DNA of 64,000 nucleotides from Anaerolineae bacterium (lineage in GTDB: Bacteria; Chloroflexota; Anaerolineae; Promineifilales; Promineifilaceae): contig JAMLHW010000002.1 in the NCBI GenBank assembly GCA_023954475.1, positions 372,001 to 436,000 of the forward strand, written 5' to 3'. A program made the translations under genes and the position numbers. The notes below the pieces were generated by a model. That model was not told the origin of the DNA and ran no database searches. It saw only the letters and a list, made by a program, of their open reading frames with translations. This document shows, one piece after another, positions 27,091-60,900 of this stretch. The stretch's first letter is position 1. Each line of letters opens with the position of its first letter.

Positions 27091-27131
27091 TAGGCGGATA
27101 GTTTATCCGCCTATCGGATTAACAATCCGAT
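27091..27131. repeat. Two adjacent hairpins between hoxH and hoxW
   Basis: TAGGCGGATA-GTT-TATCCGCCTA (10-bp stem) is followed at once by ATCGGATT-AAC-AATCCGAT (8-bp stem). The double-hairpin layout resembles a REP-like extragenic palindrome. I see no second copy in the window. Confidence 0.6.
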
Positions 27132-27197
27132 TTACTCAGGAGAAAGGAAAGGCGGAAGGATTTTCACCTTGCAGCCTCTCGCCTTCATCCTCTGCAC

Positions 27198-28620: not shown

Positions 28621-28621
28621 G

Positions 28622-29158: not shown

Positions 29159-29232
29159 ACCAGACTCCAGACTCTCATAGCACAGGCAAAGCTTGCCTGT
29201 GCCTGCCGCAGACACGCTGTCTACGCTACCAA

Positions 29233-31343: not shown

Positions 31344-31548
31344 GGCGTATACCTCCCGTATAATGGGTTTAATTGGGACCGCATCAGGCAGGGAAATCGA
31401 CTGGCTGCAACTCAGAATACGGTCTGACCGGTTCGGCATGATCACTTACGATCATGCTTAAAACGACTGATCAATCGACAAGGGAGGCGCTGTTTCCGTA
31501 GGGCGAAACGATGGTTGGCTCCCGCACCCCAGGTGATTGACGCTAGGA

Positions 31549-32385: not shown

Positions 32386-32501
32386 GGCATATTGCTTTGG
32401 CTTGGCTTGCACAGAGATGGGTGAAAAACTACGATGCTGCAACTCATTGCATTACGTTACTACATAATGCAATAGTAATGAATTGCAGCGATGCCTCATA
32501 G

Positions 32502-32535
32502 TGACAAATGTCATGATGCATGCATGACATTTGGC
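32502..32535. promoter_or_regulatory. Paired operator-like sites upstream of the PocR regulator
   Basis: TGACAAATGTCA at 32502-32513 and the half-degenerate TGACATTTGGCG at 32524-32535 lie 23 bp apart centre to centre. The first is identical to the site at 52503 in front of the Rrf2 gene. Other pairs occur at 40525-40558 and 52372-52405. Confidence 0.6.
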
Positions 32536-32604
32536 GTTGCCGAATTAACCAGATATGTTGTGAATGGAAATCGGCCGAAACGCGATTTCGGCCGAACTAA
32601 CAGT

Positions 32605-36346: not shown

Positions 36347-36901
36347 CTAAACGCCGAGTGACAGCGGTACGGCTGCGTCATAGCCACGCTGCAAGATCAA
36401 CATGTTGACATCGAGCAATTCTGTCTTTGTCGCCGGTAAATGGGCAGTCAATGCCTGCCTAAAGGTTTCGAGCGACACAATCGGCCGACGTGCCAACATT
36501 GCGCCGACTGCAGCCATATTGAGCAGTTTGGGTTGATCAAACGCCTCAGCGATCAGATTCGCAGGAATGTAAACAGCTTCAACATCATCGCGCTCACATT
36601 TCTCCGTCACCAGTGAACTGTTGACAACAATGAGACCACCGGGTCTAACTTTGTCGACATATTTCTCAAAAGACGGATGATTGAGCGCAATGACGATCTC
36701 CGGCTGCGATACAATCGGCGCACCAATCGGCCGATCACTGATCACGACCGTACAATTCGCCGTTCCGCCACGCATTTCCGGACCATAAGACGGAATCCAG
36801 GTCACGTGCAACCCGTTTTCCATCCCGGCATAAGCCAACATTTTTCCGGCAAAAAGGACGCCTTGTCCACCAAAGCCGGCAATGACAATTGAACTTTCCA
36901 T
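36347..36901 (-). CDS. 2-oxoacid:ferredoxin oxidoreductase gamma subunit
   Basis: 184-residue gamma subunit ([68 protein letters not shown]). It belongs with the alpha, beta and ferredoxin subunits at 38265-40386, and likely shapes the CoA site of a four-subunit KOR/VOR enzyme. It is separated from the beta gene by an aminotransferase gene, which is unusual. The start lies right at the SD-like GAGGATATTAAG. Confidence 0.88.
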
Positions 36902-36943
36902 CTTAATATCCTCACACTTTCACAACCAAAAACGTTGCCTCAA

Positions 36944-38215
36944 TTAACCGGCTGCATAGATCAATTCATGCTGTCCTGCCAACTCGGCTGTGAGTACGCT
37001 GCCCAAGCGACGAATACCTTCTTCAATCACGTCAGGCTGCGCATTAGAAAAATTGAGTCGGAAGGTATTGACAGCTTCGTTCAGCGGATCAAACGCTATG
37101 CCAGGCACATATGCCACGTTGTTAGCAACCGCTTTCTCAAACAACACAGAGGCATCGACACCCTCCGGCAGCGTTACCCAGAGGAACAGACCACCGTCAG
37201 GCCGGGTCCACGCTACGCTCGGAGGAAAATGGCGCGCCATCGCGGCCAGCATAACATCGCGTCGTTCACCATAAACTGTGCGAATGTGCTGCACATGCTG
37301 CTTGAGAAAACCATCTTTGACAACTTCATAGGCTACCATCTGCACGAATGAACTGCTGTGCAAATCCATACCTTGTTTCGCCATCACAGCCCGCTCAATC
37401 ACACTCTTCGGTGCGACCATCCAGCCCAGACGCAGACCCGGAGCCAATGTCTTGGAAAATGTACCCAAATAGATCAAATTGCCGCGCATGAAACTGCCGT
37501 AACTGTCATAGGTCGCGCCTGTATCGTTCATCAGATCATTATCAACCACGACAAGTGGCGGCAGATGCTCACCTTCATAGCGCAATTCGCCATACGGATC
37601 ATCCTCGACAATCGGGATGCCATAATGGTCAGCAATTTCGATTAATTCGTAGCGCCTTGCCAGCGAAAGCGTCACGCCGCCGGGATTCTGGAAGTTAGGC
37701 AAAATGTACATAAACTTGGGACCACTGCACAAAACTTCTTCCAGTAAATCGACACGCAATCCGTCATGGTCAATGGGCACGGTGACGAATTCGGCTTGAT
37801 AGGCGCGCCAGGATTGCAGCGCGCCGAGATAAGTCGGTTGCTCGGTCAGAATGCGGTCGCCGGGATTGATCAACATCTTGCCGATGATGTCGATCGCCTG
37901 CTGCGCACCACTCGTAATCAATATGTTTTCCGGACCGGCCTCAATGCCATAGGCAGCCATTTTGTCCGCCAGAAATTCGCGCAACGGCATAAAGCCTTCG
38001 GTGGTGCTGTATTGCAGCGCCGAGCAGCCGTTTTGCGATAGAACGCGGTCGGTTGCCGCTTGAAATTCTTCAACGGGGAATAATTCCGGTGCAGGCAACC
38101 CACCGGCAAATGATATGATCTCTGGCCTGGCTGTGAGTTTGAGCAATTCGCGGATCATCGAACTGCCCATCCACTGCATGCGTTGTGCGTAACGCTGACG
38201 CCACGGAGTTGACAT
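36944..38215 (-). CDS. PLP-dependent aminotransferase (class I/II, 2-aminoadipate transaminase-like)
   Basis: 423-residue fold-type I aminotransferase. Motifs: ISFAGGLPAPELFPVEEF, GALQWSTTEG-like ALQYSTTEGFMPLREFLADKM, ITSGAQQAIDIIGKML, PNFQNPGGVTLSLARRYEL, VEDDPYGELRYEG, and the PLP lysine region YLGTFSKTLAPGLRLGWMVAP. It transfers amino groups between an amino acid and a 2-oxoacid. It sits between the beta and gamma subunits of the ketoacid oxidoreductase, which suggests that the 2-oxoacid it makes is the substrate oxidised by that enzyme. The exact amino acid (branched-chain, 2-aminoadipate or aromatic) cannot be settled here. Confidence 0.88.
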   Translation of the reverse strand: MSTPWRQRYAQRMQWMGSSMIRELLKLTARPEIISFAGGLPAPELFPVEEFQAATDRVLSQNGCSALQYSTTEGFMPLREFLADKMAAYGIEAGPENILITSGAQQAIDIIGKMLINPGDRILTEQPTYLGALQSWRAYQAEFVTVPIDHDGLRVDLLEEVLCSGPKFMYILPNFQNPGGVTLSLARRYELIEIADHYGIPIVEDDPYGELRYEGEHLPPLVVVDNDLMNDTGATYDSYGSFMRGNLIYLGTFSKTLAPGLRLGWMVAPKSVIERAVMAKQGMDLHSSSFVQMVAYEVVKDGFLKQHVQHIRTVYGERRDVMLAAMARHFPPSVAWTRPDGGLFLWVTLPEGVDASVLFEKAVANNVAYVPGIAFDPLNEAVNTFRLNFSNAQPDVIEEGIRRLGSVLTAELAGQHELIYAAG

Positions 38216-38264
38216 ATGATCCTCCTTACGTGATCACTGGTAGCAGTCTGTAGCTGTGGTTCCG

Positions 38265-39062
38265 CTACCTTTTACTGCGACCTCTTGCCTGTTGCAATTC
38301 GTCGGCGACTTTGAAATCACCGAGCGGATAAACCGGAACCATCTGGTCACGCACCCAGTCACAAGAATCGCCGGGCGTCATGCCCCAATTTGTCGGGCAG
38401 GTAGAGAGCAGTTCGACAATGCTGAAACCAATTCCGGCCATCTGGGCTTCAAATGCGGTCTTGATCGCTTTTTTGGCCTGGATGACATGACGAGCGTCAT
38501 GCAAACTGCGCCGCACACTGTAAGCTGTACCGGGTATACCGGCGAGCAATTCGGCCATGTGCATGGGATAACCAGCCAATTGTGTATCTCGGCCGAATGG
38601 AGACGATGTCGTTTTCTGCCCGATCAGGCTGGTTGGGGCCATCTGGCCGCCGGTCATGCCGTAAATGGCATTGTTGATGAAGATGGTCGTGATGTTTTCG
38701 CCACGATTGGCCACATGGATTATTTCAGCTGCGCCGATGCTGGCTAAATCGCCGTCACCCTGATAGGTAAATACAATTTTGTCAGGATGATAGCGCTTGA
38801 TGCCGGTCGCCATCGCCGGGGCACGTCCATGTGCCGCTTCACATGCATCGACATCAAAATAATCGTAGGCAAAAACAGAACAGCCGACCGATGCGACGAG
38901 AATTGTCTCGTCTTGCAAACCAAGTTCGTCGAGCACTTCGGCGATTAGGCGATGCGCTGTACCGTGCGTACAACCGGGGCAATAATGTGTGTAGCGCGAT
39001 GCCAGGGTGCGGGGACGCGCATAAACGAGGCGTTCATTTTCAAGTGGGAGTGTGTCTAGCAT
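38265..39062 (-). CDS. 2-oxoacid:ferredoxin oxidoreductase beta subunit (TPP-binding)
   Basis: 265-residue thiamine diphosphate subunit. [17 protein letters not shown] at the N-terminus supplies cluster or TPP contacts; [29 protein letters not shown], then [48 protein letters not shown] is the TPP motif GDGD-x(24-28)-NN with magnesium-binding residues. It decarboxylates the 2-oxoacid and passes electrons to ferredoxin. It starts 6 bases after the alpha gene stop, with a hydrophilic C-terminus. Confidence 0.9.
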
Positions 39063-39068
39063 GGTTTT

Positions 39069-40145
39069 TTACGCTCCTGCCCAGGCAAAAGCGGGCTGCG
39101 CTAAGGCATTGTGTGCGGCGGCGACGATTTCTTCAGGCATGGGAATGGCACCACCCATTCGGCCGAAAAACGAAACCGGTGCATCTGCGCCGACAGCCGC
39201 CTTGACATCAAGTAGCATTTGTCCGGCATTCATTTCGACGACGAGAAACGATTTGCCTGAACGCGACAAGTCGTAAAGCGCTTCGGTGGGAAACGGCCAC
39301 AAGGTGATTGGGCGCAATAAACCGACCCGAATGCCTTCGTCAGCCAATGTCTGCATCGCCGTTTTGGCAACGCGTGCTGCTGTGCCGAATGCGACGATGA
39401 CGAGATCGGCATCATCGACGTCAATTGTTTCGTAACGCAATTCGGCCGATTCGATAGCGTGTAACTTGTCCTGCAAACGCAGATTGAGTGTTTCCAGGCT
39501 ATCCGCACCGAGATAAAGTGAATTCACCAGATTTGGCGAACGCCCTTTCGCACCGGTTAGCGCCCAATCCGGTGCTCGTGCCGGTAACGGTCGCATCGGC
39601 GGCAACTCCGCCGGTTCCATCATCTGACCGATGGCGCCATCGGCAACCACAAACACCAACGTGCGGTATTGCTGCGCCAGATCAAACGCCAAAACCGTCA
39701 AATCGATGGCTTCCTGCACCGTTGCCGGTGCCAGGACAATCGGGTGGAAGTCGCCGTGTCCGGCACTCTTCGTCACCTGAAAATAGTCGCTCTGACTCGG
39801 CTGGATATTGCCCAGACCCGGCCCACCGCGCATGATGTCGATGATGACAACAGGGACTTCGGAACCGGCGATGTAGCTATATCCTTCCTGCATCAGGCTG
39901 ATGCCCGGACTGCTGGAGGAGGTCATCACTTTCGCGCCGGCCGCTGCAGCACCATACACCATATTGATGGCGGCTACTTCGCTTTCTGCCTGTAAAAAGA
40001 CACGACCCAGCTCGATCATACGTGCTGACATGTGTTCCAGCAGTTCTGTCTGGGGCGTGATGGGGTAGCCGAAGTAGGCGTCGCATCCGGCACGGATGGC
40101 GGCTTCGGCAAATGCATTATTTCCTTTAAGCAATTGCTGCGCCAT
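39069..40145 (-). CDS. vorB: 2-oxoacid:ferredoxin oxidoreductase alpha subunit, VorB-like
   Basis: 358-residue alpha subunit. [85 protein letters not shown] and the C-terminal [16 protein letters not shown] agree best with VorB (3-methyl-2-oxobutanoate-type), though KorA is close. It binds the pyrophosphate side of TPP together with the beta subunit. The start at 40145 has GGAG upstream and overlaps the end of the ferredoxin gene by 20 bases. Substrate preference for branched 2-oxoacids is an inference from motif similarity and from the aminotransferase neighbour. Confidence 0.87.
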
Positions 40146-40386
40146 GATGGATTTTCTCCTTCGGTTGGGGGATGTCACGAAAGACGGTGATGCAGCCGTC
40201 AGGGCATACGGTTGCACACAGGGCGCAGCCGGTACATTTGTGCTTGGGGTCGAGCAAGATTATCGGCCGATATCCCTTGGCATTCAGGAAATCGGCGTGC
40301 CGCAGCACATCGGGGGGACACGCGTCGCGACACAAATCACATCCTTTGCAGCGCTCCACGTCTACGACAATTCGGCCTGTGGCCAT
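40126..40386 (-). CDS. Two-cluster ferredoxin subunit of the 2-oxoacid oxidoreductase
   Basis: 86-residue protein with two [4Fe-4S] motifs: [15 protein letters not shown] (residues 13-27) and [15 protein letters not shown] (residues 51-65). It is the first gene of the operon and transfers electrons from the TPP subunits. Its C-terminus overlaps the alpha gene. A pair of TGAC-N4-GTCA-like sites lies 139-172 bases before its start. Confidence 0.92.
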
Positions 40387-40524
40387 TCTGATTCCTCCAT
40401 TTAGAACGGGAGACGCTCAACGAAGGTCAGGGATTTAGTTGTCGCGGCTCCACGTTAGAAAAGTGTCGTGAAATGGTTCGGATGAACCGCCTTCAGTATG
40501 CCAGATTCGGAGGAGTGGCAGTAG

Positions 40525-40558
40525 TGACAAATGACTATTGCTGTGCTGTCAAATGTCA
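40525..40558. promoter_or_regulatory. Paired operator-like sites upstream of the ketoacid oxidoreductase operon
   Basis: TGACAAATGACT (40525-40536) and TGTCAAATGTCA (40547-40558) are each one good half-site plus one imperfect half, 22 bp apart. The spacing equals that of the pairs near 32502, 52372 and 52503. The rest of the 302-base gap between 40387 and 40688 holds one TTGACA-poor region and no gene. Confidence 0.5.
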
Positions 40559-48660: not shown

Positions 48661-51600
48661 TTACTCTATGGCGGCGAGATTGGTATAGCTTTCCCAACGC
48701 TCTTCGACATCACCTTTTGCTAGTGCCAACAGCCGGGCAGCAGCCTCAGGATTACTTTGCAACAACATGCGATAGCGCCCTTCGCGATAAATGTAATCCT
48801 CCAGCTTGACTTGCGGTTTGCGCCGCGAATCGAGGCTGAATGGGTTCTTTTCCTCTAAAGCCAAATCAGGATTGTAGCGATAGAGCGGCCAATAACCACT
48901 TTCTACAGCAGCCTTTTGTTGCTCCAGGCCGAATTTCATATCGTAGCCATGAGCAATGCAATGGCTGTAGGCAATGATCAGCGATGGGCCATCATATGCT
49001 TCTGCTTCCTGAAGGACGCGAATGGTATGCGCATCATTGGCGCCAAAGGCGATCCGGGCGACATAGATGTTGCCGTAGCTAATTGCCAACAGGCCGAGGT
49101 CTTTGCGGCGCGTCGATTTTCCGGCGGCAGCAAATTTGGCGACAGCGGCTCGTGGTGTGGCTTTCGACATCTGACCACCCGTATTGGAGTAAACTTCGGT
49201 ATCCAGTACGAGGACGTTGACATTGCGCCCAGAGGCAAGCACGTGATCGAGGCCACCATAGCCGATGTCATATGCCCAGCCGTCGCCACCGACGATCCAG
49301 ACGCTTTTCTTGACCAGTACATCGGCCATGCTTTTGAGATTACTGAGATCATGTGCCATTTCGGCCGAACCGTTTGCCTGCAACAACTCGTCCAAACGCG
49401 TTTTCAATTGTGCGACGCGATCGCGTTGGCGACCGATAGCCGCGTCATCGATCTGGTCCGCAAACAGCAATGCATCGACCAATTGCACACCGATCACTTC
49501 CCGGTGCTGACGGAGCAAATTCGTTGCAGCTTCAATACGCTGATCGAGTGCTACGCGCATCCCCATACCAAATTCGGCATTGTCCTCAAAAAGCGAATTC
49601 GACCATGCCGGACCGCGACCGTCTGCATTTTGCGACCACGGGGTCGTCGGCAGGTTGCCACCATAAATCGACGAGCAGCCGGTTGCATTGGCGATGATAG
49701 CGCGGTCGCCAAACAGGCGGCTCATCAAGCCCAGATATGGCGTCTCACCACAGCCGGCGCAGGCACCCGAGAACTCAAACAACGGATCGAGTAACTGTGA
49801 GTATTTGACCTGATTGAGCGCCAACTGGCTGCGATCCATTTCCGGTAACGTCAGGAAATAATCCCAGTTTTCGGCTTCCTGCTGGCGCAGCGGGGCTTGC
49901 GGTGCCATGTTGATCGCCTTGAATTTCGGCTGCTTCTTGTTTTTGACCGGGCAAACTTCAACACACAAGGTACAACCCGTGCAATCTTCCGGTGCAACTT
50001 GCAAGCTGAACTGCATGTCCTTGAATTCTTTGTACCGAGCCGGGACAGATTTGAATGTCTCAGGAGCAGGTTCGGCCGAATCGGGATCGAACAGCTTCAT
50101 GCGAATGACCTGATGCGGACACACCAGCACACATTTACCGCATTGAATGCAAATATCCTCATCCCAAACGGGAATCTCCTGCGCGATATTGCGTTTTTCA
50201 TACTTCGTCGTCCCGGTCGGATAGGTGCCGTCAGCCGGCATGGCACTTACCGGCAAAGAATCGCCCACACGCTCGATCATACGTGCCGTCACCGATTGGA
50301 CAAACTCAGGAGCATACGCGGGAACCGCGGGCACGCGTTCAAACATGCTCGTCACAGTTTGTGGCACTGTCACCTCGTGCAAGTGGGCAACCGCAGCATC
50401 GACTGCCGCGTTGTTCATGTCGACAACCGCCTGACCGCGTTTGCTATACGATTTCACAATAGCCATTTTGATGCTCTCAATGGCATCCTTGCGGCTGAGT
50501 AACGGCTTGCCGGTAACCTGCTCCATCAAGGCAAAGAAACACGTCTGCATGATGGTATTGATGCGACGACCCAACCGAACTTCAGCCGCCAAAGCGTAGG
50601 CATCGACGACGTAAAAACGCAACTGCTTGTCGATAATGGTTTCCTGAACGCTGCGCGGCAGGTAATCCCAAACCGTATCGGCATCGTATGGGCTGTTCAG
50701 TAGAAAAGTTGCTCCAGGCTGAGCTAAGCGCAACACATCATAACGCTCAAGGAAATTGAACTGATGGCACGCCACAAAATTGGCGCGCTCGATTTGATAG
50801 GTCGATGTAATCTTGCGAGGACCAAACCGCAAATGTGATACCGTTACCGCACCTGCTTTCTTGGAATCGTAGACAAAATGACCCTGCGCAGAATTGCCTG
50901 TATTTTCACCGATGATTTTGATAGAGTTTTTATTTGCGCCAACTGTACCGTCAGAACCGAGTCCATAGAACACAGCGCGCACGACATCGTCATCTTCGGT
51001 TGAAAATGCCTCATCATATGCAATGCTTGAGTGTGTTACATCATCAATGATGCCGACTGTAAAGTGATTTTTGGGTTTATCGGCCGAAAGCCCATCAAAA
51101 ATGCCCTTGATCATCGCCGGCGTGAATTCTTTCGATGAAAGACCATAGCGACCACCGACAATTTTCGGCAAATGGGCAAATGGCGCGTCACCGTTCGCCC
51201 ACTGCTCCATAACCGCTGATACAACGTCGAGATAGAGCGGTTCACCGGCCGAACCTGGCTCTTTGGTGCGGTCGAGAACCGCAATCTTCTCAACGGTGGC
51301 CGGAAATGCGTTGACGCACGCAGCCATATCAAACGGCCGATACAGCCTTACAAATACCGCTCCGACCTTCTCTCCCCGCTCTACGAGATAATGGACGGTC
51401 TCATTGACGGCACCGGTTCCTGAACCCATCAAGACAACCACGCGCTCTGCATCTGGCGCACCGACATAATCAAAGAGATGGTATTGACGACCGGTCAGTG
51501 CAGCAAATTTGTCCATTGCTCCTTGCACGATTCCAGGCGCAGCATCGTAGAATGGATTGACTGTCTCGCGAGCCTGGAAGAACACATCGGGGTTTTGCGC

Positions 51601-52254
51601 CGTACCGCGCAGCACGGGATGATCCGGCGACAGACCACGTTGACGATGCGCAAAAACCAATTCATCATTGATCATGGCGCGAATCGTCTCATCGTCGATA
51701 GCCGCAATTTTATTGATTTCGTGGGATGTTCTAAACCCGTCAAAGAAATGAATAAATGGAAGGCGCGCTTCCAACGTGGCTGCTTGCGCGATCAATGCCA
51801 TGTCATGCACTTGCTGCACCGAACTGGACGCCAGCAAGCCAAAACCGGTGTTGCGAGCAGCCATCACGTCACTGTGGTCACCGAAAATGGACAATGCCTG
51901 AGCGGCAACAGAACGCGCGGCAACGTGAAAGACAGTTGAAGTCAATTCACCGGCAATTTTGTACATGTTGGGGATCATCAACAGTAATCCCTGAGACGCG
52001 GTAAACGTGGTCGTTAACGCGCCAGTTTGCAGAGCACCATGAACGGCACCGGCAGCACCGCCTTCGGCCTGCATCTCAACTACCATTGGTACTGATCCCC
52101 AGATATTGGGGTCACCATGCGCAGACCACTGGTCGGCTAACTCGCCCATTGGGGACGATGGGGTAATGGGATAGATGGCGATGACTTCATTGACTTTGTG
52201 GGCAATTCGCGCTGCGGCTTCGTTGCCGTCGATTGTGATCATCTGGGTTGTCAT
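48661..52254 (-). CDS. nifJ: Pyruvate:ferredoxin (flavodoxin) oxidoreductase NifJ
   Basis: 1197-residue single-chain PFOR, the usual length. Order of domains: domain I ([27 protein letters not shown]), the gamma-like domain with [22 protein letters not shown] near residue 430, two-cluster ferredoxin domain near residue 690-770 ([33 protein letters not shown]), and the TPP domain ([79 protein letters not shown]). It oxidises pyruvate to acetyl-CoA with reduction of ferredoxin or flavodoxin. It is divergent from the Rrf2 gene, with four or five TGAC-N4-GTCA-like sites in the 352-base gap. Confidence 0.95.
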
Positions 52255-52371
52255 ACCGAAACTCCTTGATCAAACTCCACACTGTTTCTGGTGCAAAGGG
52301 TGGACACGTTACAAACAACGGGCCGTTCACACCTGGATTTGATTATAGAGTTGGGTACGTTTTGCAGGCAG

Positions 52372-52405
52372 TGACAGATGACACGTGTCACGGTGACAAT
52401 TGTCA
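52372..52405. promoter_or_regulatory. Operator-like cluster on the nifJ side of the divergent region
   Basis: TGACAGATGACA (52372-52383), the perfect palindrome TGACACGTGTCA (52379-52390) and the perfect palindrome TGACAATTGTCA (52394-52405). The outer two are 22 bp apart centre to centre. They sit 118-151 bases before the nifJ start. Confidence 0.65.
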
Positions 52406-52502
52406 TGCAGCGCAACCCCTGCGACTCACAGCGGACCAGCTCATATTCGTTTAAGAAAGGTGGATGGTGATTCGGCCGAAAACCCGCCTCAACAACAAAA
52501 AG

Positions 52503-52537
52503 TGACAAATGTCATACGTAATACATGACATTTGTCA
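52503..52537. promoter_or_regulatory. Operator-like pair on the Rrf2-gene side of the divergent region
   Basis: TGACAAATGTCA (52503-52514) and TGACATTTGTCA (52526-52537), 23 bp apart centre to centre, are mutual reverse complements. A further partial copy (ATGTCAAATGTAAC) follows. They lie 70-104 bases before the Rrf2 gene start and may overlap its promoter. Confidence 0.7.
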
Positions 52538-52606
52538 TGTCAAATGTAACGCAGTGCGGCGTAAAGTTGAGTTTGTCGGTCAACAATGGTTACTTTGAGA
52601 GGGTAT

Positions 52607-53062
52607 GTGTTGCAGATCAGCCGAAAAACCGACTACGCCGTACGCATCATGATTGAATTGGGCGCAAGCGGCAACGAGGAACGTGTACCAGCCAAACTTG
52701 TTTCCCGGCGTACCGGCGTTCCCAAGTCATTTCTCTATAAAATTATGGCCGATCTGGTAAGAGCTGGTTTGGCTCGCACGTATGCCGGCGCAACCGGCGG
52801 TATTTCGTTGGCAAAACCAGCCCGAGAAATCAACATGCGCCACATCATTGAAGCGATTGATGGTCCCATCTGTTTCAATCTCTGCCTCATCAAACCGGGG
52901 GAGTGCCCACGAGACAAGGTTTGTCCGGCACACGGTTTTTGGGCTGACTTGCAGACCAATGTTATTGCGCAACTGGAAGCGGCAACGCTAGACACGTTAG
53001 TCGCTGAAGGTGAATTGTTGAAGCGCGGTCAAATACGTGCACCAATCGAGTTTCACGGGTAA
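52607..53062 (+). CDS. Rrf2-family transcriptional regulator with possible Fe-S site
   Basis: Rrf2 protein of about 151 residues, likely starting at GTG 52607 or TTG 52610, giving the family-typical LQISRKTDYAVRIMIELG; TTGAGAGGG lies just upstream. An ATG at 52586 would add seven residues and has no Shine-Dalgarno site. The winged helix covers residues 1-75 (PAKLVSRRTGVPKSFLYKIMADLVRAGLARTYAGATGGISLAKP). Then CFNLCLIKPGECPRDKVCPAHGFW holds four cysteines in the position used by IscR/NsrR/RsrR-type regulators to hold an iron-sulfur cluster. It may sense oxygen, NO or redox state and act on the adjacent TGAC-N4-GTCA sites. Confidence 0.85.
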   Translation: MLQISRKTDYAVRIMIELGASGNEERVPAKLVSRRTGVPKSFLYKIMADLVRAGLARTYAGATGGISLAKPAREINMRHIIEAIDGPICFNLCLIKPGECPRDKVCPAHGFWADLQTNVIAQLEAATLDTLVAEGELLKRGQIRAPIEFHG

Positions 53063-53084: not shown

Positions 53085-53810
53085 GTGACTACGGTAACTG
53101 AAGCCAAGCCATCACAGCCCGGTCAGCGGCGTTTACTACCGCGCTGGGCCTGGTTTTATAGTCCGCTTGTGCTAGTCGCGAGTGCAATTCTAGCCTTTAA
53201 CATTTTCCAACCGATCACCGTTCTGCCACGCATCACCCTTTCTCCAGGATTTGCTCTGAAAAACCAGGAACAGATCACGATCACGAGCGAGGATCGGCGC
53301 GGTCAGTTGACGTTGTTCAGCTTCAGTTACTCGAATTGCGAAGATTGCAAGCAAACTCCGGCGCAAATTGATGCCATTCGCACGGCGCTACGTGAACGCT
53401 ATTCGGCCGATATCGGCCTCGACATTGCCACAATTTCCCTCGATCCAGAACGCGACACACCACAAAATCTCGGCACCAGCATTGCGCCTTCACAATCGGA
53501 CAATCCCATCGGCTGGGAATGGTTGACCTCCGAATCAAACCGGGTGCGCCACGTAGTAGGAGGTGGCTTTGGACTTTTTTACAAGGCTACCGAGCCAGAC
53601 GGTGACGGAGATTACGACATCCGGTTTGAACCGCGCTATGTTCTCGTCGATCGGCTGGGAATCATGCGGGCGATTTATCACACAGCAACACCCGATGTCG
53701 ACCTTCTCGAACGCGACATCAACTTTCTGCTCAACGAAGAACAAAACAGCAAAGGCGTTGCCAAAATTGGCTACGAAGCGGCACATCTTTTCCTGTGTTA
53801 CCCACGCTGA
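53085..53810 (+). CDS. SCO1/SenC-like protein lacking the usual copper ligands
   Basis: 241 residues with one N-terminal membrane helix (WFYSPLVLVASAILAFNIF) and a thioredoxin-fold SCO domain (TLFSFSYSNCEDCKQTPAQIDAI, ATISLDPERDTPQNLG, FEPRYVLVDRLGIMRAIYH). Normal SCO proteins have C-x3-C-P and a histidine after the second strand; here the cysteines are C-x2-C (CEDC) and the histidine site reads R (YVLVDR). So copper transfer may be lost or changed, and a thiol or electron role is possible. The GTG start follows the Rrf2 gene by 22 bases. The gene opens the ba3 oxidase operon. Confidence 0.75.
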   Translation: MTTVTEAKPSQPGQRRLLPRWAWFYSPLVLVASAILAFNIFQPITVLPRITLSPGFALKNQEQITITSEDRRGQLTLFSFSYSNCEDCKQTPAQIDAIRTALRERYSADIGLDIATISLDPERDTPQNLGTSIAPSQSDNPIGWEWLTSESNRVRHVVGGGFGLFYKATEPDGDGDYDIRFEPRYVLVDRLGIMRAIYHTATPDVDLLERDINFLLNEEQNSKGVAKIGYEAAHLFLCYPR

Positions 53811-53827
53811 GAACAACGACACCGATC

Positions 53828-54511
53828 ATGACATCTGTCACTGAAACACCAACCAAAGTTGAAAACAGCACAAAAAGAGCGCCTCGCAGCCGAGCAACTA
53901 TTGCCATATGGGCCGTTCTGGGCATTACGCTGGGAATATTGCTCGCTTATTTCGCTGTCCGTCTGGCATCCGGTCAGCCGCTTATCGGCCCACCCCGCTT
54001 CAACGGCATCGTCATGCAATCGCCACAGCCCATGCCCAATTTCACACTGACGGCGCATACTGGGGAAAAAGTCAGTCTTAATGATTATCGCGACAAGGTG
54101 GTGTTGCTCTACTTCGGCTACACTTTTTGCCCCGACGTTTGTCCGGCTACGATGTGGGAACTGTCAGAAGCTATCGGCCGATTGTCTCCAAAGCAGCAGG
54201 ATCAGGTGCAGGTGCTGATGATTTCGGTCGATCCGGAACGCGACACAACAGAAAAACTGGCGGATTATGTTGCGCATTTCAACCCGGCATTTGTCGGAAT
54301 GACCGGCACAGAGGACGAGATTCTTTCAGCGACGACGCCGTTCGGCATTTATTATGAAAAACACGACGGTTCGGCCGAATCAGGCTATCTGATTGATCAC
54401 ACGGCCAGCGTTACCGTCCTCGACAAAGACGGCTACATGCGGCTGATTTATCCGTTCAATACACCGGCGGAGGCTATTTCGGCCGATTTGATCCATCTCA
54501 TCCGCCAATAA
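53828..54511 (+). CDS. SCO1/SenC copper chaperone for cytochrome oxidase
   Basis: 227 residues: an N-terminal membrane anchor (IAIWAVLGITLGILLAYFAV), then the SCO domain with copper ligands intact, YFGYTFCPDVCPATMWELSEAI (C-x3-C-P) and GYLIDHTASVTVLD (histidine). It delivers copper to the CuA centre of the subunit II encoded downstream. The ATG at 53828 is chosen; it lies 17 bases after the previous stop. It is a paralogue of the gene upstream. Confidence 0.9.
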   Translation: MTSVTETPTKVENSTKRAPRSRATIAIWAVLGITLGILLAYFAVRLASGQPLIGPPRFNGIVMQSPQPMPNFTLTAHTGEKVSLNDYRDKVVLLYFGYTFCPDVCPATMWELSEAIGRLSPKQQDQVQVLMISVDPERDTTEKLADYVAHFNPAFVGMTGTEDEILSATTPFGIYYEKHDGSAESGYLIDHTASVTVLDKDGYMRLIYPFNTPAEAISADLIHLIRQ

Positions 54512-54586
54512 CAACGTGATTATGGTGTCCGCTTGGCGACAACGAGCGCATGACACTGAAACATTGCACAGGGAGGTTATATCGAA

Positions 54587-54712
54587 ATGAAACCCAAGAA
54601 AGAGTACAAAACCCCGGCAGGAACCGTCGTACTGATGGTCATCTTCATCTTGCTGATTATCGCCTTGTGGGGCAGCGCCTATTTGACCATGTTATCACGG
54701 GGAGCGACGTAA
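54587..54712 (+). CDS. Small single-helix subunit of ba3-type cytochrome oxidase (subunit IIa-like)
   Basis: 41 residues: MKPKKEYKTPAGTVVLMV followed by one membrane helix (VVLMVIFILLIIALWGSAYL). GGGAGGTTATATCGAA precedes the ATG, and the gene lies between SCO and subunit II. Thermus-type ba3 oxidase has a similar small subunit IIa that supplies a missing helix to subunit II. The start and length are clear, although so short a protein gives little independent evidence. Confidence 0.75.
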   Translation: MKPKKEYKTPAGTVVLMVIFILLIIALWGSAYLTMLSRGAT

Positions 54713-54725
54713 AAGGAGCCAAAAT

Positions 54726-55217
54726 ATGCACATTGATCGTACTGAAAGAACCTACATGATCATCGCCGGTGCGCTGATCGCCGTTTTCTTCGGATTAGTA
54801 GTCGTCAGCAGCCTGGCTTATGGCATCCAGGTGCCGGCACCGGAAGCTCGTGTCGATCCCCAAACGGTCGCCACGCCGGGCAACTCGCCGTGGGGCGATC
54901 CGATTGACGAGCGTGTGCGCGAATTAGCGCCGGGTCAGTATGAAGCATTTATCCTGGCTCAAACCTGGGTCTTTCTGCCCAATGTCATCGAAGTGCCGGT
55001 CGGTTCAACCGTGACATTCCAGGTAACGAGCAAAGACGTTCAACACGGCTTCAACTTAAGCGGCACGAATATCAACATGATGATCATTCCCGGTCAGGTT
55101 TCCAAACTGACCGCCACGTTTAATGAACCGGGTGAATACGCATTCATCTGCAATGAATATTGCGGTATCGGCCATCAGACCATGTTCGGCCGACTCATCG
55201 TAACAGACGAAGGATAG
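54726..55217 (+). CDS. ba3-type cytochrome c oxidase subunit II (CuA)
   Basis: 163 residues with one N-terminal membrane helix (YMIIAGALIAVFFGLVVVSSLAYG) and a periplasmic cupredoxin domain. CuA ligands are visible: the histidine of DVQHGFNLSG and CNEYCGIGHQTMFGRL (two cysteines, glutamate carbonyl position, histidine, methionine). The single helix, instead of two, is the ba3/B-type pattern and agrees with the separate IIa subunit upstream. It receives electrons from cytochrome c and hands them to heme b in subunit I. Confidence 0.93.
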   Translation: MHIDRTERTYMIIAGALIAVFFGLVVVSSLAYGIQVPAPEARVDPQTVATPGNSPWGDPIDERVRELAPGQYEAFILAQTWVFLPNVIEVPVGSTVTFQVTSKDVQHGFNLSGTNINMMIIPGQVSKLTATFNEPGEYAFICNEYCGIGHQTMFGRLIVTDEG

Positions 55218-55220
55218 CAA

Positions 55221-56138
55221 ATGCAGGCGACTGAAACGACACTGCACGAGCTAAATACAACACACCCGCCGCAATCGTTGTGGAAGACGATTGTCGTTCT
55301 CTTCAAGCTGCGCGTTGTCTCCTTACTGGTGCTAGCTGCGTTTGGAGGTGCTGCGCTCGGCGCAATGGCCGGCAGAGGCGCATCGAGTTGGGCGTTGCTG
55401 CTGCTGGCTGTCGTCGGTACATTGGCTGCAGCCGGCGCTTCGGCAATCAATCAATATTTGGAGCGCGACCGCGATGCACGCATGAGTCGTACAGCGTCTC
55501 GTCCGCTGGCAACGGGTCAAATCGGCCGACCCGATGCGGTACTATGGATTGGTGTGGGCATGGTCATCTCGGCCACCGTACTTTCTGCGGTGTTCAATCT
55601 GGCACTGGCATTCTGGATTTTAATGGGAACGTTGATTTACGTACTCGTCTACACCGTCTGGCTCAAGCCGCGCACAACATCCAACATCGTCATCGGTGGT
55701 GCAGCAGGCAGTTGTGCAGTCCTCAGTGGTGGCGCAGCAATGGGCGCCTGGACAGATCCCGGCGTTTTGATTCTCGCCGCACTGGTGTTTGTCTGGACAC
55801 CTGTCCATTTCTGGGCTCTGGCACTTGCCTATCGCAACGACTACATAAAAGCCGACTATCCGATGTTACCGGCACGTGTCTCACCCGCCAAAGCGGCGCA
55901 GCGCACAGCACTTTACACCATTCTCACCGCACTATGTGGCATTGCCCTTGGCTTATGGCCACAAATTGATCCCATTTTCCTTACCCCTGTCGGAATAGCG
56001 ACTATTTTCCTGATCACACGCACCTGGCAGTTGGTTGCAAAGCCCGAAACATGGGCCGCCCTCAAACTCTTCCACTTTTCAAATCTGTATTTAGCCCTCG
56101 TGCTCGTTGTGAGCATGTTCGCCCTACTGTGGAGATAA
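55221..56138 (+). CDS. ctaB: Protoheme IX farnesyltransferase (heme O synthase)
   Basis: 305-residue membrane prenyltransferase with about nine helices. The characteristic motif NQYLERDRDARMSRTASRPLATGQ (two Asp-rich groups with R) lies near residue 78, and FVWTPVHFWALALAYRNDYIKADYPMLP near residue 205. It makes heme O for the oxidase. It overlaps neither neighbour but sits 3 bases after subunit II and 3 bases before subunit I, so the operon is tightly packed. Confidence 0.93.
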   Translation: MQATETTLHELNTTHPPQSLWKTIVVLFKLRVVSLLVLAAFGGAALGAMAGRGASSWALLLLAVVGTLAAAGASAINQYLERDRDARMSRTASRPLATGQIGRPDAVLWIGVGMVISATVLSAVFNLALAFWILMGTLIYVLVYTVWLKPRTTSNIVIGGAAGSCAVLSGGAAMGAWTDPGVLILAALVFVWTPVHFWALALAYRNDYIKADYPMLPARVSPAKAAQRTALYTILTALCGIALGLWPQIDPIFLTPVGIATIFLITRTWQLVAKPETWAALKLFHFSNLYLALVLVVSMFALLWR

Positions 56139-56141
56139 ATT

Positions 56142-57776
56142 ATGTACGCACGCGAAAATAAAATCGCCGGCTGGAGCCTCGCCGTTGCCATGATCGCCCT
56201 CTTTATTGGCGGATCGATGGGACCGCTGCAAAAGCTCAATTATGCTGGGGTCAATCTATACGACACACTGAACGACATTGGCCTTGCCAGCTACTACCAG
56301 GGACTGACACTGCATGCCGTACTGAATGCGCTGGTCTGGACAACATTTTTCATCGTCGGCTTCTTCACGTTTGCACTGGTGCGCAGCCTGAACATGCCGC
56401 TCAAAATGCCCTGGCTCAACGTGGCAGCACTCATCGTCATGGTCATCGGGCTGATCATGGCAGCCATACCGATTTTGCTCAATCTGGCGACGGTTCTATT
56501 CACATTTTACCCGCCCCTGCAGGCCAATACGTTCTTTTATCTCGGCTTAACCCTGGTCGTGATTGGGTCGTGGATGCACGGGTATGGCTACTACCTTACC
56601 TATTGGGAATGGCGCAAGCAAAACAAAGGTACACGGACACCGTTTATTGCGCTGGCGATCATCATCACGATGGTTATGTGGCAAATTGCGACTCTCGGCG
56701 TAGCCATCGAGATCATCTTTCTCATTATCCCGTGGTCACTGGGTTGGGTTGAAGGCACAGACCCTACACTGGCACGCACCTTCTTCTGGTTCTTCGGCCA
56801 TCCGCTAGTCTACTTCTGGTTACTGCCGGCGTACGTTTCATGGTACGCCATGTTACCCAAGCAAGCTGGCGGCAAGTTGTTCAGCGAAGGGCTGGCACGG
56901 CTGGTGTTTTGGCTATTTCTGGCATTGTCGGTGCCAGTTGGTTTGCACCATCAATATTTGGACCCTGGTGTACCAGCCGGCTGGAAAGCTGTACACGCGA
57001 TGATCACCTTCGCGCTTTTCTTTCCCAGCATGGTCACAGCATTCACTGTGGTGGCCTCATTGGAAGTAGGTGGACGCGCCCGTGGCGGCACGGGTTTGCT
57101 GGGGTGGATACGCGCTCTGCCCTGGGGTGACCCTTCGGTGACGGCACAATTGCTGGCGATGATTTTGTTTGTCTTTGGCGGCATCGGCGGCCTGACCAAT
57201 GCCTCCTATAATCTGAATCTCGTTATTCACAATACCTCATGGGTTCCCGGCCACTTCCATCTCACAGTCGGCTCGGCCGTGACACTGACGTTCATGGGCA
57301 TTGCTTACTGGCTTGTACCGGCCATTTCCGGCAAGAACCTGTGGAGCCGCAAGGTTGCCCTATGGCAGGGATGGACCTGGTTTGTGGGCATGATCTTGAT
57401 GTCGAACGGGTTGCACATTCTCGGTCTCAACTTCAGTATGCCGCGACGCACCATGATTGGCGCTGCCCCGTATGCTGATCCGGCTTGGAACCCGTTGCTG
57501 TTTGAAGCGATGATTGGTGGTCTAATTCTGGGTGTCAGCGGCTTGCTGTTCTATGCAAACATGCTTGGGACTGTTCTGTCAAGAAAGAAAGCCGAAACAC
57601 CAGTCGAAATGCCTGTGGCAGAGTCCATGGATGCAACGCCCGCACCGGCGTGGTTGGATTCATGGAAACCCTGGATGGCTTTGACTATCGTGTTGATTCT
57701 GATTGCTTACGGTCCGATTCTAGTGGATTTGATTAGCTCGGCGCAATTTACGTCACCGGGCTTCACTCCGTGGTAA
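56142..57776 (+). CDS. ba3-type cytochrome c oxidase subunit I
   Basis: 544-residue catalytic subunit with about thirteen helices. Heme and CuB ligands: LTLHAVLNALVWT (low-spin heme His), FWFFGHPLVYFWLLPAYVSWY (CuB His and the cross-linked Tyr), GLHHQYLDPG (His pair), and VPGHFHLTVGSAV (high-spin and low-spin His). The K-channel pattern and short length fit the B-type (ba3) rather than the aa3 type. It reduces oxygen to water and pumps protons. The gene lies directly after ctaB and its stop overlaps the region before the cytochrome c gene. Confidence 0.93.
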   Translation: MYARENKIAGWSLAVAMIALFIGGSMGPLQKLNYAGVNLYDTLNDIGLASYYQGLTLHAVLNALVWTTFFIVGFFTFALVRSLNMPLKMPWLNVAALIVMVIGLIMAAIPILLNLATVLFTFYPPLQANTFFYLGLTLVVIGSWMHGYGYYLTYWEWRKQNKGTRTPFIALAIIITMVMWQIATLGVAIEIIFLIIPWSLGWVEGTDPTLARTFFWFFGHPLVYFWLLPAYVSWYAMLPKQAGGKLFSEGLARLVFWLFLALSVPVGLHHQYLDPGVPAGWKAVHAMITFALFFPSMVTAFTVVASLEVGGRARGGTGLLGWIRALPWGDPSVTAQLLAMILFVFGGIGGLTNASYNLNLVIHNTSWVPGHFHLTVGSAVTLTFMGIAYWLVPAISGKNLWSRKVALWQGWTWFVGMILMSNGLHILGLNFSMPRRTMIGAAPYADPAWNPLLFEAMIGGLILGVSGLLFYANMLGTVLSRKKAETPVEMPVAESMDATPAPAWLDSWKPWMALTIVLILIAYGPILVDLISSAQFTSPGFTPW

Positions 57777-57862
57777 AATACAGGGGTTTCGGGAGCCAAA
57801 TTGGTTCCACATCAACGGCAGATTGCACAAACCAATCTGCACTAAATGGGAGCATTGTAACA

Positions 57863-58300
57863 ATGAAGAAAACATTCCTTTCACTTCTCGTCTTGGTTCT
57901 GGCCTTAGTGATGGTGGCCTGTGGTGGTGGCGATGATTCGTCATCTTCGTCCTCGTCCGGTGGTGGTGAAGAAGTCGCTGCCACGGGCGGTGATGCCGCA
58001 GCCGGCGAAGAGTTGTACAAGACGGCTGTGCTGCCGAGCGGCACGCTGGGCTGTAGTTCTTGCCACTCGCTGGAACCAGACACCATCATCGTCGGCCCAT
58101 CGCATGCCGGGTTAGCCAATCGCGCCGGTGAGTATGAAGCGGGTGTTTCGGCCGAACAGTATCTGCGCACATCCATCATGGACCCCAACGACCATCTTGT
58201 CGAGGGGTTCAGCGAAGGTGTTATGCCACAGACCTACGCCGAAGAGCTGACGCCAGAGCAAATCGACAATCTGGTCGCCTATCTGTTAACACTTAAATAA
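57863..58300 (+). CDS. Lipoprotein cytochrome c, monoheme
   Basis: 145 residues. Lipobox VMVACGGG gives a lipidated N-terminus; a Ser/Gly-rich linker follows, then the heme-binding motif CSSCH (GTLGCSSCHSLEPDT) and an axial-methionine candidate in GVMPQTYAEEL. LTPEQIDNLVAYLLTLK is the C-terminal helix typical of class I c-type cytochromes. It is most likely the membrane-bound electron donor to the ba3 oxidase encoded just upstream. ATG 57863 gives a clean signal peptide; an earlier start would not. Confidence 0.9.
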   Translation: MKKTFLSLLVLVLALVMVACGGGDDSSSSSSSGGGEEVAATGGDAAAGEELYKTAVLPSGTLGCSSCHSLEPDTIIVGPSHAGLANRAGEYEAGVSAEQYLRTSIMDPNDHLVEGFSEGVMPQTYAEELTPEQIDNLVAYLLTLK

Positions 58301-58313
58301 GTTGTTGCATCGT

Positions 58314-58351
58314 GAGAGCGTATCTCCTTTGCAAAGATACGCTCTCTTTTT
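58314..58351 (+). terminator. Intrinsic terminator after the oxidase operon
   Basis: GAGAGCGTATCT and AGATACGCTCTC form a perfect 12-bp stem, with five T after it. It closes the SCO-to-cytochrome c operon 14 bases after the stop at 58300. Confidence 0.92.
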
Positions 58352-58402
58352 GCACCATCTTCGTGTGGGTGGGAGCCAATTCACCTCACGGAGGAAATCA
58401 CA

Positions 58403-58786
58403 ATGGATGCTCAAGCTGTAGCTGAAAAGCGCATTCGCGATGCCTGGGTCATGGGTATCGCAGCGGGAATCATCTCAATTCTCCTGACTATGATTTACGC
58501 AACAGGAGCAAGTTTTGCTCACGTTGACCCGTGGGCCTGGATCGAAATCGTTGTGATTTTTGTGTTGAGTTTCGGCATTTATCGCAAAAGTCGGCTCAGT
58601 GCCATTCTGCTATTGCTGTTTTATGTCGGCAGTCGCGTCATTTTCTGGATTGACGAGCAGACACTGATCGGCATTCCAATGGCGCTAGTTTTCGGGTACT
58701 TTTTTCTACAAGGCGTACGCGGTACGATTGATATCCATCGCCTGCACGACGAAAGTGAGTTTGGATCTAAAGAACCGAGTTTCTGA
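58403..58786 (+). CDS. Four-helix membrane protein of unknown function
   Basis: 127 residues with four hydrophobic segments (MGIAAGIISILLTMIYATG, WIEIVVIFVLSFGIY, AILLLLFYVGSRVIFWI, IGIPMALVFGYFFLQGVRG). ACGGAGGAAATCACA precedes the ATG. I know no function; the pattern is shared by small hypothetical proteins in many phyla. It precedes the cytochrome b fusion by 32 bases and may be co-transcribed with it. Confidence 0.75.
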   Translation: MDAQAVAEKRIRDAWVMGIAAGIISILLTMIYATGASFAHVDPWAWIEIVVIFVLSFGIYRKSRLSAILLLLFYVGSRVIFWIDEQTLIGIPMALVFGYFFLQGVRGTIDIHRLHDESEFGSKEPSF

Positions 58787-58818
58787 TTGAAACTGGTTGA
58801 TGCAGATCGATCGCAAGT

Positions 58819-60900
58819 ATGTCCGTTGCCGAAAAACCGACCGATTCGGCCGAATCCCGCACCCATGCTCCCCACTCCATCGACGAATGGATCATTCCCC
58901 GTAGCCGTTGGGCCATCCTGCTCGAAAAGCTGGCCCTCACGATTGAGCATCCGGTTAACCGGCTAATCGGTAACTATCAGCTCAACCCGTTCTATCACAC
59001 CGGCACAATTGCCGTTTTATTGCTGGCTATCGTCGGCTTAACCGGCATCTATTTGTGGCTGTTCTTCCAGTTTGGGTTTGAAGAATCATACGCCGCCACC
59101 GTGCGCATGGAAAATCAATTGATTGCCCGCACCATGCGTGCCATACACCGCTACGCATCAGGGGCGCTGATCGTCACCACATTGCTGCACGGTTACCGCA
59201 TTTTGTTTATGCAGCGATTCAAAGGACCGCGCTGGCTAGCTTGGGTAACAGGCGTGTTCATGACATTTCTGTTGTGGCTGGCCGGTGTTACCGGTTACTG
59301 GCTGATTTGGGATCAGCGCGCCCAGTTGATTACAGAAGGGTTTGTCGATATTTTGCAACGGTGGACGACATGGGCACCGGCGTTCATGGTGAGCATGGTT
59401 TCGGCCGAAACCAATGACCGATCGTGGCTGCCGCTACTAATCATTTTCATCGCTCACCTCGCCCTATTCATTATTTGCGTTGTCCTAACCTGGCTACACA
59501 TCCGACGTCTGAGCCGTCCGCGCTGGATACCCGACACACATTGGATAGTGATCGCTGGTATTGTCCTGCTCGTCATTTCGCTGCTATTTCCGGCCGGAAA
59601 TTTGCCCGCCGCCGATTTCACGCAACAACCAACCTCCGTCGACCTCGATCCGCTCTTCCTTTTCTACTTTCCGATCAACAAGACATGGTGGAGTTCTGCG
59701 CTGTGGATCACCCTGACCATCGTGACAGTGTGGGCAGTGGCTTTGCCGTGGCTGCGCCGCAAAAATGCTCCACAACCACTGCCTGTCATCGTTACCGACG
59801 ACTTGTGTACCGGCTGTACCAAATGTGCCAACGATTGCCCATATGACGCCATCGTTATGGTTGAGCGTCCCGCCGAACACCGCCACAAGTTGCTCGCAGT
59901 CGCCGATGCTTCAAAATGCGTTTCCTGCGGCATTTGCATTGGCTCATGCGACGATTATGCGATTACGCTGGGCGATGTGCCGCCACAACTGGTTTGGACC
60001 ACCGTGACGGAACGGCTCGAAAAAGCAAAACAAGCAGCACCGGCAGGCGGCGTCAAGGTCATTTTCACCTGCGAACGACACGCCGTGCAGGGTGCTAGAC
60101 CCTACCTAAACGGGAAATCCCCCAAAACCGATCCGGCAGTCGAAGTGATTGCACTTCCCTGTGCCGGTGTTGTGCTGCCCAGTGTCATGCAGCGCACATT
60201 GGAAGCCGGCGCAGCAGAGGTCGAAGTGGTTGGCTGCCCACCACACGACTGCGCCAATCGCGAGGGCAATATGTGGGAGGAGCAGCGGTTGACACACGAG
60301 CGCGTGCCACGCTTGCGCAAAGCATTTGACCACAAACCCATCACGGCTGCCTGGATTGCGCCCAACGAATTTGAGCGCTCGATTCCAGCTACTGCTGCTA
60401 CAATTACAGATGATTCGGCCGAACCGGATTATCTCTCCGCTCGTTTTTTCCAATGGCTCAACTGGCGCAATTTCGTCATCGGTTTCGCCTTGCTAGCTGC
60501 CGTACTGGTCGCCCAGGTGTGGCTGACAGGTCTCAGTTTCACGCCCGTTCCCCAGACAGAGGCATTGGTACAAATTGTGCTGGACGCACCCGCTGTGCAA
60601 CTGGCCGATGACATGATTCTGCAACTGACAGTAGACGGGGAAGTTGTGCTCGATGAACGGGTAGATGCAGGCACGGCCGATCCGCGTTTTACTACACTTC
60701 CATTGGCAGCTGGCACACATCACATCCGCCTGGCTTATAGCGATCCGGACGGCAGTTTGAGCTACACGATTTTTGAGGACACCGTTTCGGCCGATGCCGG
60801 AATGACTATTCAGGTCAACAATCCCAAACAGCCCGATCCACTGTGCCCCGCACGCGCCTGCACGGACGCCCGCAACCAAATCACCCTCGGTGCACAATAA
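58819..60900 (+). CDS. Cytochrome b6-type / two-cluster ferredoxin / MvhD-like fusion protein
   Basis: 693-residue membrane-bound redox protein, with domains in this order. Residues 25-260 form a diheme cytochrome b core: HRYASGALIVTTLLH and HLALFIICVVLTWLH each give His-x13-His. After another helix, residues 330-390 carry two [4Fe-4S] motifs (CTGCTKCANDCP, CVSCGICIGSC). Residues 415-500 match MvhD (hydrogenase delta subunit): FTCERHAVQG, LPCAGVVLPS, GCPPHDCANREGN. A membrane helix near residue 555 and a C-terminal beta domain follow. A quinone-to-ferredoxin or heterodisulfide-reductase-like electron shuttle is suggested. I know of no exact described counterpart. Confidence 0.82.
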   Translation: MSVAEKPTDSAESRTHAPHSIDEWIIPRSRWAILLEKLALTIEHPVNRLIGNYQLNPFYHTGTIAVLLLAIVGLTGIYLWLFFQFGFEESYAATVRMENQLIARTMRAIHRYASGALIVTTLLHGYRILFMQRFKGPRWLAWVTGVFMTFLLWLAGVTGYWLIWDQRAQLITEGFVDILQRWTTWAPAFMVSMVSAETNDRSWLPLLIIFIAHLALFIICVVLTWLHIRRLSRPRWIPDTHWIVIAGIVLLVISLLFPAGNLPAADFTQQPTSVDLDPLFLFYFPINKTWWSSALWITLTIVTVWAVALPWLRRKNAPQPLPVIVTDDLCTGCTKCANDCPYDAIVMVERPAEHRHKLLAVADASKCVSCGICIGSCDDYAITLGDVPPQLVWTTVTERLEKAKQAAPAGGVKVIFTCERHAVQGARPYLNGKSPKTDPAVEVIALPCAGVVLPSVMQRTLEAGAAEVEVVGCPPHDCANREGNMWEEQRLTHERVPRLRKAFDHKPITAAWIAPNEFERSIPATAATITDDSAEPDYLSARFFQWLNWRNFVIGFALLAAVLVAQVWLTGLSFTPVPQTEALVQIVLDAPAVQLADDMILQLTVDGEVVLDERVDAGTADPRFTTLPLAAGTHHIRLAYSDPDGSLSYTIFEDTVSADAGMTIQVNNPKQPDPLCPARACTDARNQITLGAQ

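Follow-up and report, generated by a model that had tools for sequence, protein, structure and literature searches.

Paired TGAC-N4-GTCA sites at anaerobic and redox promoters of Anaerolineae, with a DevR/DosR-like response regulator as the candidate activator

The window, that is, the whole 64-kb stretch of Anaerolineae DNA analysed here, carries on its minus strand nifJ (48661..52254), encoding a pyruvate:ferredoxin (flavodoxin) oxidoreductase (PFOR) that matches TIGR02176 with 1791.9 bits against a cut-off of 911.35. On the plus strand follows the gene of an Rrf2-family regulator (52586..53062), which scores above the TIGR00738 cut-off and has conserved cysteines, C90, C94, C101 and C107 being invariant in an alignment of nine sequences. 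The plus-strand genes after it (53085..60900), several of them with matches below the curated cut-offs, encode two SCO1-like proteins, a CoxII-like protein, haem o synthase, an oxidase subunit I-like protein, cytochrome c and a cytochrome b/ferredoxin-like fusion. This fusion, a protein of 693 aa at the end of the oxidase cluster (58819-60900), apparently joins a cytochrome b domain to a ferredoxin-like region.

The minus strand also carries a regulator gene (31549..32442) whose product combines an HTH_17 with a PocR sensory domain (PF10114, PF12728), and a 2-ketoacid oxidoreductase (KOR) operon of five genes (36347..40386), namely the ferredoxin (40126-40386), alpha (39069-40217), beta (38265-39062) and gamma (36347-36901) subunits and an aminotransferase (36944-38215), all on the minus strand. 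Downstream of the PocR gene, with an ORF lacking any Pfam match in between (29574-31445), lie hydrogenase-like genes (26599-29236), including one for a small-subunit-like protein (28622-29236) and one with a weak match to the NiFe large subunit (27431-28336); the product of 26599-27063 could by eye be a maturation protease, and had no Pfam match.

Exact copies of TGAC-N4-GTCA were found eight times in the window, compared with 1.37 +/- 1.22 expected, and none of 100 shuffles reached that count. The initial annotation had placed pairs of such sites, 22-23 bp apart, upstream of nifJ, the Rrf2 gene, the KOR operon and the PocR gene, and all four pairs are present at these spacings after small corrections of position. 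The paired candidate activator site of nifJ (52372..52405, minus strand) consists of a proximal site with one mismatch (52372-52383) and an exact distal site (52394-52405), 22 bp apart, with an additional exact copy, unmentioned in that annotation, between them (52379-52390); a -10-like TATAAT (52342..52347, minus strand) stands 24 nt after the proximal site. Before the Rrf2-SCO-oxidase cluster (52503..52537, plus strand) both sites, at 52503 and 52526, are exact and 23 bp apart, and a -10-like TAAAGT (52562..52567, plus strand) is again found 24 nt after the proximal one. At the candidate pair of the PocR-type regulator (32502..32536, minus strand) the proximal site (32502-32513) is exact and, as claimed, the same 12-mer as at 52503; its distal partner (32525-32536), which had been put at 32524, starts at 32525, a spacing of 23 bp, and departs from TGACANNTGTCA by two mismatches. 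The -10-like element here is TACTAT (32472..32477, minus strand), 24 nt after the proximal site. The candidate pair of the KOR operon (40525..40558, minus strand) is the least exact, with two mismatches at 40525 and one at 40547 (spacing 22 bp), and its -10-like CATACT (40495..40500, minus strand), also 24 nt after the proximal site, departs from TANNNT in the first base.

A promoter scan of the window, allowing up to two mismatches in the proximal site and five in the pair and demanding TANNNT at 23-25 nt, returned exactly three promoters, those of nifJ, Rrf2 and PocR, all with TANNNT at 24 nt. Three more exact copies, at 20432, 38488 and 53829, are contained in ORFs, and none of them is accompanied by a partner with three or fewer mismatches. 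The window is also strewn with a different palindrome, TTCGGCCGAA, present in 43 copies compared with 0.11 expected under a dinucleotide model, and with TCGGCCGA (87 copies, 1.6 expected under the same model); the copies of TTCGGCCGAA occur in coding and non-coding DNA throughout, for example at 109, 262, 32587, 42382 and 52471, and we take this highly iterated palindrome to be reminiscent of the cyanobacterial HIP1.

Across the window's own genome TGACANNTGTCA was found at 22 sites compared with two for the reversed control; about seven of these fall within longer ORFs and could have arisen by chance. Pairs with no more than three mismatches in 20 positions numbered four at a spacing of 23 bp and five at 22 bp (reversed controls 0 and 0), and four of these nine are inside the window. 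The five pairs outside the window have no clear gene behind a -10 element. Unpaired single sites were located before a gene for a multihaem cytochrome (L008) and before that of phosphoglucose isomerase (L009).

The pairs recur in the family to which the genome belongs (f1). In 24 f1 genomes, pairs with at most three mismatches amounted to 101 at 23 bp (controls 5) and 82 at 22 bp (controls 2), while 16 genomes from elsewhere gave eight (control 1) and two (control 1), respectively, all four totals being summed by hand. In a survey of 298 genomes of the class, the strict site RTGACAWWTGTCAY was also abundant in most genomes of two further families, f42 and f46, and sparse elsewhere; the 267 genomes outside these three families held 119 copies compared with 12 in controls (hand-summed). 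A set of 47 genomes gave a hand-summed count of 76 against none, which is biased, the genomes having been picked for possession of the response regulator discussed below and mostly also of a site. The paired sites are confirmed as real.

A consensus drawn from 87 distinct pairs, mostly but not only from f1, is RTGACAWWTGTCAY, in which C at -3 and A at -2 are strongly conserved, T at -7 occurs in only 5-8% and A is the commonest base at -8. The spacing was examined independently in f42 and f46, in regions around 37 singly chosen strict sites among those listed in the class survey: within 8-90 bp, 12 of them had a partner with no more than two mismatches at 22 bp and 11 at 23 bp, with none at any other distance, both members being counted where both are strict sites, and the reversed control gave five at scattered distances. 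The distance to the -10 element proved equally rigid. Of 117 gene-oriented rows, mostly from f1 and including both directions where genes flank both sides, 42 have TANNNT at a distance of exactly 24 nt behind the proximal site, against a mean of 2.4 for the other offsets; the peak at 24 nt reappeared in the independent set (20 of 74 flanks), with binomial p values of about 6e-41 and 1e-16, respectively, for rows that are not all independent. The consensus promoter is accordingly RTGACAWWTGTCAY, N8 or N9, RTGACAWWTGTCAY, with TANNNT following at 24 nt from the 12-mer core of the proximal site; motif, spacing of 22/23 bp and -10 distance are all established by the sequence analysis. When the start of the hexamer is taken as -12, the site centres are predicted near -42 and -64/-65, the position expected of an activator that replaces the -35 box, with the -10 element and the transcription start being predictions as well.

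Conservation before orthologous genes was observed most clearly for Rrf2. After removal of eight duplicates from 31 rows, 23 distinct loci remained, of which 20 have kept the pair, most of them about 110 bp before the start codon (one of the 20, L207, is a five-mismatch pair in an atypical place), and the reversed pattern was never better than eight mismatches at these loci. Of 22 PocR-HTH17 loci, 11 have a pair (up to five mismatches) at the promoter of that gene, each of them with TANNNT at 23-25 nt; among these is the own genome's second copy, which lies beside a pyridine nucleotide-disulphide oxidoreductase gene. In relatives, pairs followed by a -10 element precede genes for pyruvate phosphate dikinase (PPDK), formate-tetrahydrofolate ligase, a formate/nitrite transporter, an electron-transfer flavoprotein, a NuoE-like [2Fe-2S] protein, an FeS-flavin oxidoreductase, ArsR-type regulators and HdrC-like proteins and, by eye, SCO1-like and multihaem-cytochrome-like proteins; where the strict -10 element is not demanded, radical-SAM (HemN-like) and nitroreductase genes are added. 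One genome, G023, has five pairs (up to four mismatches, two of them overlapping) within an 18-kb stretch encoding DsbA-like, VKOR-like, CBS and UspA-like proteins, a histidine kinase, a response regulator, PPDK, PFOR and dihydroorotate-dehydrogenase-like, formate-dehydrogenase-like and FocA-like proteins, most of these names being given by eye.

Many of the targets are thus anaerobic or redox genes, and the pairs recur at promoters of anaerobic electron transfer in relatives as the suggested redox regulon would have it, but they are not confined to these. Perfect pairs at L170:3221-3255 and L173:3237-3270 (genomes G006 and G007) lie upstream of genes that by eye encode a GntR-like regulator and, behind it, two carbamoyltransferase-like proteins, a target with no obvious redox role, and some genes downstream of pair and -10 element could not be named. 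The further statement that all targets other than regulators are low-potential ferredoxin enzymes was too narrow, given that the Rrf2 gene heads an SCO/oxidase cluster and that PPDK, formate transport, nitroreductase and multihaem cytochrome genes were found as well.

The protein that binds the pairs is probably a NarL-type response regulator closest to DevR/DosR, whose gene adjoins that of a kinase with a GAF domain resembling that of DevS, an assignment made from sequence comparison to which we give a probability of roughly two in three. The own copy of the regulator (G000:C20:136417-137061) is 75% identical to that of the G023 cluster, and its nearest solved relative is DevR (3c3w, E 3e-47), ahead of VraR, NarL and DesR. 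The GAF domain of the G023 kinase finds its best match in DevS (E 4e-29), and a similar GAF domain was found beside the regulator in all 26 f1 loci. The position equivalent to the haem-ligating His149 of DevS, placed according to PMC4082495 with numbering by construct length, is histidine in 35 of the 36 loci with a GAF match; one f42 kinase has no histidine there and also carries a FixL-like PAS domain. Of 57 loci, 21 showed no DevS-like kinase near the regulator in the DNA covered, which for most extends some 1.5 kb to either side, and 19 of these 21 are from site-poor families.

The regulator tracks the motif among the 31 survey genomes of f1, f42 and f46. With a cut at two or more strict sites, a value chosen afterwards, 23 genomes with the regulator are site-rich and one is not, compared with two and five of those without it (Fisher p 0.0007), a co-occurrence that is confounded by ancestry. 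Absences of the regulator in the class survey are soft because only 10 candidates per genome were scored. The genome G020, which lies outside that survey, has 11 pairs and no orthologue of the regulator (90% complete; 74 of 90 candidates scored), and none was found in G219 (seven sites, 89% complete) or G257 (five sites, 73% complete); in G011 the regulator is present with no strict and eight loose sites. Eight further families (f5, f11, f12, f29, f35, f44, f51 and f54) have kept the regulator with few sites, 0-1 per genome, and in f5, f11, f12, f29 and f54 its recognition helix is nearly the same, which implies either a small regulon there or a specificity that extends beyond the helix.

Pairs with no more than four mismatches are found inside the regulator's own locus in eight of 26 f1 loci (four of the eight from one genus) and in seven of eight f42/f46 loci, with none in the control; the figure for other families is one of 23, and among the rows listed for these no strict site lies within 5 kb of the regulator gene. 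Autoregulation does not appear to be a general rule in f1, the pair being present in only eight of its 26 loci, and the own locus has none. In f42 and f46 the pair is located just downstream of the regulator gene (L273, L274, L275, L276, L278, L279 and L280), and in L273, L275 and L276 it precedes a gene for a protein of about 100 aa; the L275 copy, the only one compared with Pfam, shows weak HMA/SCP2 similarity.

If this assignment is right, two dimers of the activator would occupy the same face of the helix at its promoters, near -42 and -64/-65, with the proximal dimer taking the place of a -35 box. The DevR/DosR-like regulator would receive its phosphate from the histidine kinase encoded next to it; the DevS-like GAF domain of this kinase is a probable haem binder and may report the loss of oxygen (or NO or redox state). 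At low oxygen, the regulator would then switch on PFOR, KOR, the PocR-type regulator and the Rrf2-headed oxidase cluster.

Foremost among the alternatives, albeit unlikely, is that a different NarL/LuxR-type response regulator, a paralogue and not the DevR-like orthologue, binds the pairs. Such proteins share the same HTH class, the own genome has 14 matches at E <= 1e-25, and a paralogue with 52% identity is encoded in G009:C250 with a pair about 200 bp downstream; a paralogue would also explain the sites of G020, G219 and G257. Against this, the DevR-like group, the sole NarL group surveyed, does track the motif.

Next in order, and similarly doubtful, is a Crp/Fnr-family protein, the family first suggested in the initial annotation, with one dimer at -42 and a second at -64. 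The layout of this family is matched by GA at -5/-4 and by the class II and class I positions, and Crp-type HTH matches were found in all 40 genomes searched. Half-sites of the FNR/HcpR type are TTGAT or TTGAC-N4, with T at -7, and that of CRP is TGTGA-N6. Set against these consensus sequences, the site is neither TTGAC/TTGAT, with T at -7 in so few copies, nor TGTGA, with mostly A at -8, and the strong conservation of C-3 and A-2 also speaks against the family. A crp gene does lie close to a pair in G001, G022, G004, G021 and G014, behind a DUF3307-like gene, but this Crp has no close orthologue in the own genome (best match 1.3e-23) or in G296 (nine sites, 2.3e-23) and is present in the site-poor G287 (1.8e-73). 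This one surveyed Crp group was set aside as it does not follow the motif in the class survey, in which nine or fewer candidates were scored per genome. The three strong Crp proteins of the own genome are without the four-cysteine FNR pattern.

Considerably less probable is Rrf2 as the binder, the rival candidate of the initial annotation, with the protein controlling its own gene through the pair. Rrf2 proteins often autoregulate, and the pair upstream of Rrf2 in 20 of 23 loci would suit such a role, but an Rrf2 orthologue at E <= 1e-40 was found in only nine of the 24 f1 genomes, and no match at E <= 1e-3 in G009 (17 sites), G012 (17), G019 (16), G020 (14) and G023 (12). At G014:C399 the pair stands before an SCO-like gene with no Rrf2 gene there, that of G014 being on another contig. 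Because Rrf2 is missing from these site-rich genomes, it is read as a target and not as the binder. The PocR-HTH17 protein was likewise rejected as a universal binder and is read as a target, there being no match at E <= 1e-10 in the site-rich G023. That the sites are chance copies, or a genome-wide repeat with no regulatory role, has a negligible probability because of the -10 and spacing tests: in its favour, the own genome does contain another, unrelated palindrome in very many copies, and coding DNA harbours some of the single sites, but against this stand near-zero controls, strict spacing, a -10 distance that is constant in both sets and conservation at orthologous genes.

The DevR box is GGGAC-N4-GTCCC (the GGGACT box), and the sites described here keep its GAC-N4-GTC core but have half-sites of RTGACAW where DevR has GGGACTW, with RT and not GG in the flanks. 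The closest solved relatives of both the response regulator and the kinase GAF domain belong to DevR/DosR-DevS/DosT, the system of the mycobacterial hypoxia regulon, whose haem-ligating His149 position is kept here. Of the base-contacting residues Lys179, Lys182 and Asn183 of DevR (PMC4082495), only Asn183 is kept in the alignment, with Lys179 replaced by glycine and Lys182 by arginine. DevR binds cooperatively to two or more sites in its promoters, the proximal one over the -35 region (PMC3029386), an arrangement shared by the several predicted sites per promoter here, except that the spacing is fixed at 22/23 bp. DevR targets include universal stress and nitroreductase genes (PMC5069765), and such genes are found near pairs here too, together with PFOR, KOR, PPDK, PocR and Rrf2 genes as targets that set this system apart; autoregulation of the response regulator, as noted, does not appear to be general here. 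A second parallel is OsdK-OsdR of Streptomyces coelicolor, in which the sites predicted for OsdR, a DevR orthologue, likewise lie in front of genes for PPDK, universal stress proteins and nitroreductase, but with a different consensus, AGGGCCGATCGGCCCT, and in a different phylum (PMC5069765).

Crp/Fnr regulators (FNR, HcpR and CRP) share with the present system a dimeric palindrome and activation from about -41.5, and differ in that the site here is without T at -7 and TGTGA and that the own Crp proteins have no FNR cysteine pattern. The likeness to IscR/NsrR/Rrf2 systems consists of an Rrf2 gene with conserved cysteines behind a pair, and the difference is that the distribution of Rrf2 here does not follow that of the motif, its gene behaving like one of the targets. 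Among the papers listed, a literature search found none on a paired-site regulon in Chloroflexota and nothing useful on the DesR motif; matches that combined the phylum or class with a regulator of this kind were a Rhodococcus genome paper and a review of nitrate-sensing kinases, and a search for the string TGACANNTGTCA matched only in a fly paper. As judged from sequence, the system appears to resemble the DevR and OsdR regulons with a different DNA box and a gene content shifted to ferredoxin metabolism.

To our knowledge, little is known of gene regulation in uncultured Chloroflexota. We lean slightly towards the view that a DevS-DevR-like oxygen or redox switch, with a DNA code of its own (RTGACAWWTGTCAY pairs at -42/-64), controls anaerobic metabolism across entire families of uncultured Anaerolineae, in tiers that run through second regulators of the PocR, Rrf2 and ArsR types. 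The promoter code places predicted promoters with single-base precision and points to one candidate regulator, and its strictness would allow the anaerobic regulon to be compiled from nothing more than metagenome-assembled genomes. Should the regulator assignment hold, a DevR-type protein would here have altered its DNA specificity (Lys179 to Gly, GGGAC to RTGAC), and the oxygen sensing of mycobacterial and streptomycete dormancy would be linked to ferredoxin-based energy metabolism in another phylum. The logic of the actinobacterial dormancy regulon would then have a counterpart in Chloroflexota, built around ferredoxin metabolism.
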